Assembly (NCBI GenBank): GCA_023253625.1
Contig: JALRFY010000211.1
Coordinates: forward strand, 1-32,195
DNA from: Akkermansiaceae bacterium
GTDB lineage: Bacteria; Verrucomicrobiota; Verrucomicrobiia; Verrucomicrobiales; Akkermansiaceae
DNA: 32,195 nt
Reading direction: 5' to 3'
The position numbers and the translations under genes were made by a program. The notes under the pieces are model-generated. The model had not been told where the DNA came from and did not search any database. It was given only the letters and a program-made list of their open reading frames with translations. Shown in pieces: positions 1 to 2,164 of this stretch (position 1 is the stretch's first letter; the number at the start of each line of letters is the position of its first letter).

Positions 1-482
1 CGATCCCCTCCTCATTGGTTCGGCCCTTCACTGGGTTGAATGCCCTGGCCGCGCCAGCGGCTCCGCAAAACGCGCAGCCTAACAGCATGGCCGGAGCGCA
101 GAGCAGGCAATCCTCCGGCGTCTTTGCTGTGCTCATCCGCACTCCGGCTCGTTTCCCCCGCTACTATGGCATCTGCTGACTTCCCGCCCCCTGACAGCAG
201 CGGGATCTCCCCAGGTAATGACACGTTGCTCCGCTGCACTGCCGCCGGATTTACCTCCACGGGCATACCAGACGCCTTCGGTGTGTTGTGCCACCTTGAC
301 GCACCCTGTCGGCCTTCTATCCGATTCTTGTCCATCAGCTCGCGATTTTTCTCCTAGCCTTCCTTCCCCGGGTCGGTCACCCTTCCCGAGTTGGCTTCAA
401 ATGGTGGTTTCTTCATTTCCATGTTCTGGTATTTCCACAGGGGACTTGAACCCCGTTTACAACGTGCCCATGCTGGGCGCAC
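1..482 (-). mobile_element. Group II intron, 5' ribozyme part (runs off left edge)
   Basis: Read on the minus strand from 482, the sequence starts GTGCGCCCAGCATGGGCACG, which fits the GUGYG start typical of group II introns. It continues into small hairpins (GGGG...CCCC near 438-455) and then a stretch around 158-190 containing GTCAGCAGATGCCATAGTAG, which resembles the conserved tract that I recall preceding reverse-transcriptase ORFs in bacterial group II introns. No full reverse transcriptase is visible. The open frame at 335-12 on this strand stops at 12, so it is probably ribozyme sequence read as protein, and the maturase should lie left of the window. The 5' exon ends CTTGT and carries a strong hairpin (497-592) about 14 nt upstream of the junction. 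A hairpin upstream and a TTGT-type target are what is known for class C introns that insert into attC sites. The class assignment is inferred. Confidence 0.72.
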
Positions 483-606
483 ACAAGACGAGACACAGCA
501 ACCGCCACCAGCCGCCCTGTCAGCAACATCACCCGTGATATGAACCTCCACTCCCGTCTCGACGCTCGCTCCCGCTGGTGACGGTGCGTGCTACTGACGT
601 TTGGAT
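483..606 (+). other. attC-like integron recombination site interrupted by the intron
   Basis: The plus strand resumes after the intron as ACAAGACG, which would be the end of an attC first box (RYYYA/AC) followed by AAG. Inside, ACCGCCACCAGC (501-512) pairs with GCTGGTGACGGT (574-585) with one mismatch. AGCA (497-500) pairs with TGCT (589-592) after a 3-nt bulge on one side, like the unpaired bases of attC hairpins. The site ends in TTGGAT (601-606), the reverse complement of the last six bases of the box at 902-908, so it marks the start of the next cassette. The left flank between box and stem is longer (12 nt) than usual, and the full R'' box is not visible because the intron splits it. No coding region lies between the intron and 616. 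Confidence 0.55.
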
Positions 607-615
607 ATAAAATCC

Positions 616-894
616 ATGCAAGACAAATACACTGCGGAAGACGTGATTCGACGTATTGAAAGCGAGCTGGATGCGGGCAAGACGGTCCGTGCGCGGACGA
701 TCATTCGGCTTACTACAAATATTGGAATAAAGGGAGCCAGAGAGATTGTCAAAGGACGGCGAAAGATTGAGCTTCACGAGGTTACCAACACGGATTTGGA
801 TAATCTGAATCGAGCTGGCTGCAGCGTAGGCTCTGCCGTGTTTATTATCTGCCTGACCCTTGCATCCTTTCTTGCATGCCATTTACTCGCCTAA
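616..894 (+). CDS. Small membrane protein with L7/L12 C-terminal-domain-like fold (cassette ORF)
   Basis: This 92-aa ORF begins at ATG 616; an in-frame TTG at 601 is part of the cassette boundary and less likely to be used. Residues about 8-55 (VIRRIESELDAG, IRLTTNIGIKGAREIVKG) resemble the ribosomal L7/L12 C-terminal domain, where a helix and the pattern G(L/I)K.A(K/R) are typical. Such domains are known outside the ribosome in small bacterial proteins. Residues about 73-91 form a single hydrophobic helix (GSAVFIICLTLASFLACHLL), so the protein is probably anchored by its C-terminus with the small domain in the cytoplasm. The stop is eight bases before an attC-like site. Base composition is visibly lower in GC than the housekeeping genes to the right. 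Function is unknown; the L7/L12 likeness is my pattern reading. Confidence 0.7.
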   Translation: MQDKYTAEDVIRRIESELDAGKTVRARTIIRLTTNIGIKGAREIVKGRRKIELHEVTNTDLDNLNRAGCSVGSAVFIICLTLASFLACHLLA

Positions 895-901
895 CTTCGG
901 C

Positions 902-988
902 ATCCAACAAGCAGTGGGTGGCAACACCGATCCGGCTATCAGATGAATTCGAGCCTCATACAGGCGTGCCACCACTCTATCGTTCGCC
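902..988 (+). other. attC-like integron recombination site
   Basis: The layout matches an attC site. The R'' box ATCCAAC (902-908, fits RYYYAAC) is followed by spacer AAGC and L'' AGTGGGTGGCA (913-923). After a 43-nt middle comes L' TGCCACCACT (967-976), spacer CTATC, and R' GTTCGCC (982-988). L'' and L' pair perfectly except for one extra G on the left arm, which is the kind of extrahelical base that directs strand choice by the integrase. R' GTTCGCC is the exact reverse complement of GGCGAAC right after the next ORF (1294-1300), as expected if bases 983 onward belong to the downstream cassette. Total length is 87 bp, within the usual attC range. Confidence 0.7.
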
Positions 989-999
989 CCAAAAATAAC

Positions 1000-1293
1000 A
1001 TGAAGATCAGAAACACCTATTTGACAATCAAATCAGCAAGCATGGCAGCTCTTCTGTCAGCAGTTGTCCTCTCATTGACAGGATGCGAACGCTCCAAAGA
1101 ACAAGGCGTCAAAGGAGCACTTACGGTCTCGTATGAAATCCAGATCTCGGCAGACACGAGGAAGTCTGAGTCAGGGGAATACGGCGAGATCCAGATTCTC
1201 GATCACTATGTCATACTCAATAGCGAAGACGGCAAAGGTGGCGTGATCATTCCAAGCTCCAAGCTTAATCAGCTGGTTTGGAGAAGGAAGTAA
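1000..1293 (+). CDS. Small predicted lipoprotein (cassette ORF)
   Basis: This ORF encodes 97 aa from ATG 1000. The longer reading from 943 is unlikely because it starts inside the attC-like site. The N-terminus has positive residues, a hydrophobic stretch and a lipobox LTGC, so the mature protein should start at Cys about residue 29 and be attached to a membrane by lipid. The mature part (about 68 aa) is polar, with a likely beta-rich segment (VSYEIQISADT, EIQILDHYVILNSEDGKGG) and ends in a basic WRRK. I do not recognise a family. It lies between two attC-like sites, shares the lower GC of its left neighbour, and has no operon partner. No good Shine-Dalgarno sequence precedes the start (CCAAAAATAAC). 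Confidence 0.75.
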   Translation: MKIRNTYLTIKSASMAALLSAVVLSLTGCERSKEQGVKGALTVSYEIQISADTRKSESGEYGEIQILDHYVILNSEDGKGGVIIPSSKLNQLVWRRK

Positions 1294-1419
1294 GGCGAAC
1301 AAAGCGTGGATCCTAACGCCCGACCCGCCGCGAGTTCAATCCGTCATGACCATCCCACCCTCAACCCGCAGTCGAAGCCACGCCCCCGGTCAAGAGTCCT
1401 GTGTCCTTTGACGTTCGCT
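1294..1419 (+). other. Weak attC-like site after the lipoprotein ORF
   Basis: GGCGAAC (1294-1300) directly follows the stop codon, and GTTCGCT (1413-1419) lies just upstream of the next ORF. The two pair over six bases. After the first box the sequence AAAGCGTGG aligns with AAGCAGTGG of the clearer site at 902-988, and AACGCCCGACCC aligns with AACACCGATCC. I could not find a convincing complementary L' arm next to the right-hand box; CCACGC at 1378-1383 could pair with GCGTGG but sits far from it. The site may be degenerate, or the right boundary may be wrong. Confidence 0.4.
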
Positions 1420-1426
1420 CCAAAGA

Positions 1427-1654
1427 ATGCGTCTCTACCTTCATGTCCTCTCGCGAGATCCGGTGCTTGAGCAGTCGCCAGATTTCGAGGCTGCAGTCCG
1501 GGCGTGCGTTGCTGATGCGCCGGGCATTCTTTCCGTGACGAGCGTCGAGCCTCACACTCGGGGTGGATTCTCAGTGGTCGCAGATCGCGTAGAGGATCTT
1601 CCCGATAATTTCGACGACTATTTCGAACGGTCGAAGCTGATGTTGGTGATTTGA
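1427..1654 (+). CDS. Hypothetical small protein (possible third cassette ORF)
   Basis: This 75-aa ORF starts at ATG 1427, seven bases after a possible cassette-start box (GTTCGCT). It has no signal peptide or membrane helix. It is acidic in its second half (DRVEDLPDNFDDYFERS) and has an N-terminal part suggestive of an alpha/beta protein. I do not recognise the family. Several opposite-strand frames overlap it, so it is supported mainly by its position behind a cassette-like boundary and by sensible amino-acid composition. No attC-like box follows its stop, so it is either the last, damaged cassette or native sequence. Confidence 0.45.
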   Translation: MRLYLHVLSRDPVLEQSPDFEAAVRACVADAPGILSVTSVEPHTRGGFSVVADRVEDLPDNFDDYFERSKLMLVI

Positions 1655-1691
1655 GGCATACCACAATGAACATTTCTGAGCATGAATGGGA

Positions 1692-2164
1692 TCAGAGTAT
1701 ACCAATTCACATTTTTCTTACCGGGGGACAGAGGCTCAAGGCAGCATATTCCCATGGCGAAGCAACCAGGTTTCCAATATCGCGGAGCGGTCATGTGTTC
1801 CAAGGTCGTGACAAGGCCGTTCCGGTAAACGCCACGGATTCGGATCCGCACCATTTCAAGGCTCTCGCCGATTACATCCACCTCAATCCCGCGCGTGCCG
1901 GGCTGGCTGGAGGCAAGCGTGGTGCGCTCCTGGCTTGCCCATGGAGCAGCCTCCCGTCGCATCACAAGGGAAACCGACCCGCGCAAGGTCCAACTCGCGA
2001 TCCTGCTGCGCAGCCGCACCAGCGTGGGCCATGCCTGGATCGCGGAACAGCTTGCCATGGGCCACCCGGGGTCGGTCAGCAGGAGTGCTTCCGCAGGACG
2101 CACCAACAAAGAAACGCTCAAGAATGCTGATAAACCTGGGAATCTGTTAAAATATGTACTCTGA
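1692..2164 (+). mobile_element. Remnant of a Y1-transposase (IS200/REP-associated type) element
   Basis: TCAGAGTA (1692-1699) and its reverse complement TACTCTGA (2157-2164) bracket the broken transposase described separately. The match extends loosely outward (GGG before the left copy, CCC after the right). Such end sequences fit the palindromic ends that Y1 transposases act on, although eight bases alone could arise by chance. The element abuts an hrpA-type remnant on the right, whose missing 5' part is not found on the left, so the locus has been rearranged rather than simply interrupted. Confidence 0.45.
1754..2164 (+). pseudogene. Decayed REP-associated Y1 (HUH) transposase
   Basis: Three pieces of one transposase are visible in shifted frames. 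ATG 1754 opens MAKQPGFQYRGAV, the usual N-terminus of this family (MAR.PR..YPGA.YHV). After the VM at about 1792 the reading jumps to another frame with SGHVFQGRDKAVPV and then ADYIHLNPARAGL...PWSSLPSH, the late part of the catalytic domain. From about 1965 a return to the first frame gives RETDPRKVQLAILLRSRTS and WIAEQLAMGHPGSVSR, the C-terminal helical tail seen in verrucomicrobial members. The stretch that should carry the HUH histidine pair is deleted, so the product cannot be active. The family is assigned from these motifs. Confidence 0.75.

Follow-up and report, generated by a model that had tools for sequence, protein, structure and literature searches.

Sedentary chromosomal integrons, of which those of Vibrio are an example, consist of an integrase gene that is divergent from the first cassette and of unidirectional cassettes with one small ORF each, separated by attC sites with RYYYAAC- and GTTRRRY-type boxes and extrahelical bases. 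The recombination substrate of the integrase is the bottom strand of attC in its folded form. Integrons and attC-specific introns have been studied mostly in proteobacterial resistance integrons. Verrucomicrobiota are already among the listed hosts of sedentary chromosomal integrons (PMC8618304). The literature found on Akkermansiaceae with integrons was confined to gut resistome papers. Group IIC-attC introns, such as ltrA in class 1 integrons of enterobacterial plasmids and UHB.F1, begin with GTGYG, encode a group II reverse transcriptase with a maturase domain and insert at TTGT/T within R'' on the bottom strand of attC, in the orientation opposite to the cassettes (PMC7923331). The best match of the intron reverse transcriptase reported in that paper was itself a protein from Verrucomicrobia (PMC7923331).

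Here we describe a stretch of 32,195 nucleotides (the window) at the start of contig C232 in the genome of an Akkermansiaceae bacterium (3.44 Mb, 291 contigs). Positions 483-1419 represent, in all likelihood, the distal end of the cassette array in a chromosomal integron; one attC site of this array (attC A) has been invaded by a group IIC-attC intron. The array and the intron are both known kinds of element and do not represent a new mechanism. The locus shares with sedentary chromosomal integrons the features listed above, including the divergent integrase gene, which is found on another contig of the same genome (C173) and in relatives.

Features of the locus

The features are listed from left to right.

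1-482, minus strand: 5' part of a predicted group IIC-attC intron; the RNA reads from 482 to 1, begins GTGCGCCCAGCATGGGC and is cut by the contig end
2-31, minus strand: start of the putative intron reverse transcriptase/maturase; GTG start, ten codons (VKGRTNEEGI), then contig end
483-606, plus strand: attC A, with the intron inserted in its R'' box, of whose AAC just AC remains (483-484); R' box GTTTGGA(T) at 599-606, with one extra T
616-894, plus strand: ORF of cassette 1, 92 aa, no family match
902-988, plus strand: attC B, intact; R'' box ATCCAAC (902-908), R' box GTTCGCC (982-988), paired arms, extrahelical bases
1000-1293, plus strand: ORF of cassette 2, 97 aa, no family above cut-off
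1294-1419, plus strand: attC C, last in the array, 126 bp; R'' box GGCGAAC, R' box GTTCGCT, arms no longer complementary
1651-2130, plus strand: remnant of a REP-associated (Y1/IS200-like) transposase; weak match to NF047646 (E 0.029), stretches 75-90% identical to relatives
From about 2.6 kb onward: genes conserved across the genus

The cassette ORFs have GC contents of 49.1% and 47.3%, compared with 63.6% for the window, and are thus AT-richer, as had been claimed. The beginning of the second ORF reads as lipoprotein-like (LTGC); its matches to NF052322 and NF000517 were far under the cut-off and were set aside. A search of 72 further genomes of the genus found neither ORF; taken together with the conservation of the genes from about 2.6 kb, this absence fits a recombination boundary. 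In these properties both are typical orphan cassettes. No sigma-70-like promoter was found in positions 1-2500. A copy of 2171-2418 with 89% identity is present in contig C19; we take this segment to be the probable 3' terminus of an hrpA-like helicase gene, and the flank of the array therefore looks rearranged.

attC sites

The original prediction had described a cassette-like array with attC-type sites, a view upheld by the attC model match, the R''/R' mates and the integrase gene elsewhere in the genome; all strings it quoted are present in the sequence. The segment 902-988 is a genuine attC. Its four boxes stand in attC order, and the pairing of its arms (AGTGG[G]TGGCA and TGCCACCACT) was equalled in none of 500 shuffles. 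A covariance model built from 30 sites beside integrase genes of relatives, with none from this genome, scored it at 39.9 bits (E 8.5e-8 in the 32-kb window with filters off). This is the highest attC-model match in the genome, followed by C64:900-987 and C173:105-228, and the only significant one in the window with filters off. Its R' box (GTTCGCC, 982-988) is, exactly as claimed, the reverse complement of GGCGAAC at 1294-1300, the R'' box of attC C. R' boxes such as GTTCGCC and GTTCTGC are looser than the GTTRRRY of sedentary chromosomal integrons, and an earlier script that required consensus boxes missed every site in the window for this reason; the sites were recovered by the model and by homology. 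Whole-site fold energies of the three sites lay within the shuffle range (z 0.34, -0.64 and 0.45), so that the evidence for attC is one of pattern, arm pairing and homology and not of stability.

Regarding 483-606, for which a model match had also been expected, none is reported because the R'' box is cut by the intron. The arms of this segment pair to a degree reached by none of 500 shuffles, and it aligns with the uninterrupted 131-bp attC of the nearest integrase-bearing relative (L040:3049-3179). The proposed mirror of TTGGAT (601-606) and ATCCAA (902-907) is real as a six-base match, but TTGGAT is preceded by a T and not by the G of GTTRRRY; the R' region reads ACGTTTGGAT, with one extra T. 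These properties identify 483-606 as a further attC, split by a group II intron.

The last site, 1294-1419, is homologous to attC sites of 124-126 bp in relatives, to which it is about as similar as those sites are among themselves. Its arms fail to pair (p 0.06; in a second test 288 of 300 shuffles paired as well), and it is therefore not callable by structure alone; the attC model found in it only two weak halves of 7.5 and 7.6 bits. Its right end is nearly letter-for-letter that of L045:5879-6004, whereas its left arm is nearer to L044:5844-5967, which suggests a hybrid or decayed terminal attC. The degenerate state of this site and the nature of the left border of the array within the window, a group IIC-attC intron, had both escaped the earlier reader.

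Intron in attC A

A match to the group II ribozyme core (RF02001, 82.3 bits) lies at 386-220, and the intron boundary at 482 is common to related copies. The ten codons VKGRTNEEGI have their counterpart in MKDRTNEEGI of L092, the start of a protein with RVT_1 and GIIM domains. The 5' splice site falls inside the R'' box of attC A at TTGT|T (482/483), on the bottom strand and opposite to the cassettes: the bottom strand of the relative L040 reads CGTCTTGT-TGTGC, whereas that of the window reads CGTCTTGT followed by the intron start GTGCGCCCAGCATGGGC. Segment 1-482 is thus the 5' part of an intron inserted in an attC R'' box, the place that group IIC-attC introns are known to target; it resembles them in insertion site, orientation, GTGYG start and a predicted group II reverse transcriptase with maturase domain. 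It differs from the plasmid-borne introns in its verrucomicrobial lineage: in a relative's copy, the reverse transcriptase shares 48% identity with an ltrA that lies among the cassettes of class 1 integrons. A relative's intron protein matches TIGR04416, and its nearest plasmid counterpart is the ltrA of integrons.

Among 33 distinct homologous copies from relatives and from this genome, 30 have 5' exons ending in TTGT, and a significant attC hairpin (p <= 0.02) directly precedes the junction in about 19 of 32. The intron 3' ends read ...GGGACCCGAT|TNNNN, and the joined exons (GT+TNNNN) rebuild the R'' box GTTNNNN. In contig C165 the rebuilt box, GTTCGCT, equals the R' box at the opposite end of the same cassette, which provides an independent check of both intron junctions.

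From established integron biology, small promoterless genes would have been captured and reshuffled by way of the folded bottom strand of attC. The intron RNA and its reverse transcriptase would recognise the attC hairpin and TTGT|T and reverse-splice there, and the intron would thus target the same folded strand as the integrase. Since the intron splits the R'' box, attC A would be out of use, and it would stay inert for the integrase until the intron is spliced or lost.

Integron integrase

The intI search that had been proposed did yield an integrase gene beside a cassette with attC in the same genome, but the gene is truncated and lies on another contig (C173), since the window begins where its own contig does. 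A complete integron would have a functional intI with the additional domain, linked to the array; here intI is truncated and on a different contig. The ORF on C173 matches TIGR02249 over its first half only (86.8 bits) and is about 90-91.5% identical to its homologue in L040, the nearest relative, up to residue 256. The remainder past about residue 256 was found neither on C173 nor in four other stretches of this genome that were compared, and a genome-wide search for a separate second half of the integrase found none except in Xer-like genes. The adjoining divergent cassette with attC (C173:105-228) runs off the contig. The integrase gene itself stops short of a segment bounded by inverted repeats (ACTAGTGT...GAACACTAG; L008 1716-2140), possibly a small insertion element.

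The full-length homologue in L040 scores 303.6 bits (family cut-off 265) and aligns over the whole catalytic part with the structure of the Vibrio cholerae integron integrase (2a3v, E 4e-60). The full-length integrases of relatives score above or close to the family cut-off and, by alignment with 2a3v, keep the additional integron-integrase domain. They differ from those of sedentary chromosomal integrons elsewhere by having about 100 extra residues at the N-terminus, and this genome differs further by the truncation of its gene. Compared by integrase, the genome stands closest among named organisms to Akkermansiaceae and other Verrucomicrobiales. Integrase matches at E 1e-15 occur in 54 of 99 relatives, a count that includes Xer-like proteins at its weak end, so that the share with a true integron integrase is lower, roughly a third. 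Within this genome, the recombinases on C74 and C139, which gave weak integrase matches, are XerC/XerD-like by sequence.

Because the integrase gene is truncated and the arms of attC C are unpaired, the array in this strain is probably a relic, without activity at present.

Alternative explanations

Several points were counted against the whole reading: attC A and attC C have no model score of their own, the R' box of attC A has an extra T, whole-site fold energies do not exceed those of shuffles, the 3' half of the intron lies off the contig, and the integrase gene is truncated and on another contig. The last point bears on the question whether the cassettes of the window belong to the C173 integron at all, or form a separate integrase-less attC cluster (CALIN) seeded elsewhere in the chromosome. 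Like a CALIN, the locus has cassettes and attC sites and no integrase on its contig; moreover, the genome has at least three separate array ends (C232, C64 and C165), which cannot all terminate one array on C173. However, the contig breaks off within the intron, which puts the sequence to the left of the window beyond its reach, and the genome does carry, on C173, an integrase gene of the right family, a point of difference from a CALIN. We regard a separate cluster as possible, at somewhat less than an even chance.

Two other readings concern the hairpins. They could be REP-like palindromes of the REP-associated transposase, with boxes that match by chance, a thought prompted by the adjacent remnant (1651-2130) and by another REP-associated transposase gene beside the array end on C64. 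Positions 480-1420 are single-copy in the genome, however, the segment matches a model of foreign attC sites (E 8.5e-8), R''/R' mates flank the ORFs, and relatives carry long arrays beside integrase genes; this array context and the single copy led us to reject the palindrome reading as extremely improbable. Alternatively, the intron might be an ordinary group IIC intron behind a terminator hairpin, its link with attC being incidental. Group IIC introns generally use hairpins, and a few copies in relatives do sit elsewhere (L098 and L115). Nevertheless, the TTGT at nearly all junctions, the attC hairpins and R' boxes before most of them, 3' exons that start with TNNNN, and a junction without a T-run in the window make this very unlikely. 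In L098 the introns stand in tandem, the 3' end of one abutting the 5' end of the next.

Other arrays and intron copies

The intron-invaded distal array end of the window is accompanied in the same genome by two other array ends:

C165 (L089), 1-930: 5' part of an intron (1-201) in an attC (202-323), cassette ORF (332-844) and the truncated 3' end of an intron, which supplies the rest of the cassette's R'' box and joins directly onto a chromosomal gene
C64 (L147), 330-2190: array end with two attC sites and, next to it, the gene of a REP-associated Y1 transposase, comparable to the neighbourhood of the window's array

Among relatives, the complete genome L045 carries no fewer than 28 attC sites within 20 kb, many of them near-identical (the GGCGCAGCCAACCGCG family), and its array resembles a Vibrio-type superintegron; arrays with the same attC families are also present in L043, L044 and L047. 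Integrons and attC-specific introns are thus a recurrent feature of Akkermansiaceae and related Verrucomicrobiales, and, since many copies show where the two junctions lie, they offer a comparative set for the choice of attC sites by the intron and for its role in the making of cassettes.

Many truncated and some tandem intron copies occur within one clade. That attC-specific introns of Akkermansiaceae are numerous enough to remodel arrays through homology between copies in several attC sites is an unlikely, speculative extension. If it were true, intron-mediated exchange between arrays would scatter array ends over the genome, leave truncated introns joined to the chromosome (as on C165) and produce hybrid attC sites (as at 1294-1419), and the clade could serve as a natural experiment on whether attC-specific introns help to build new cassettes. 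On a further contig of this genome, C282 (L231, 230-1700), the 3' part of an intron is followed by a cassette encoding an Mrr-type restriction endonuclease (Mrr_N, Mrr_cat), and this intron-cassette junction recurs in the relative L096.
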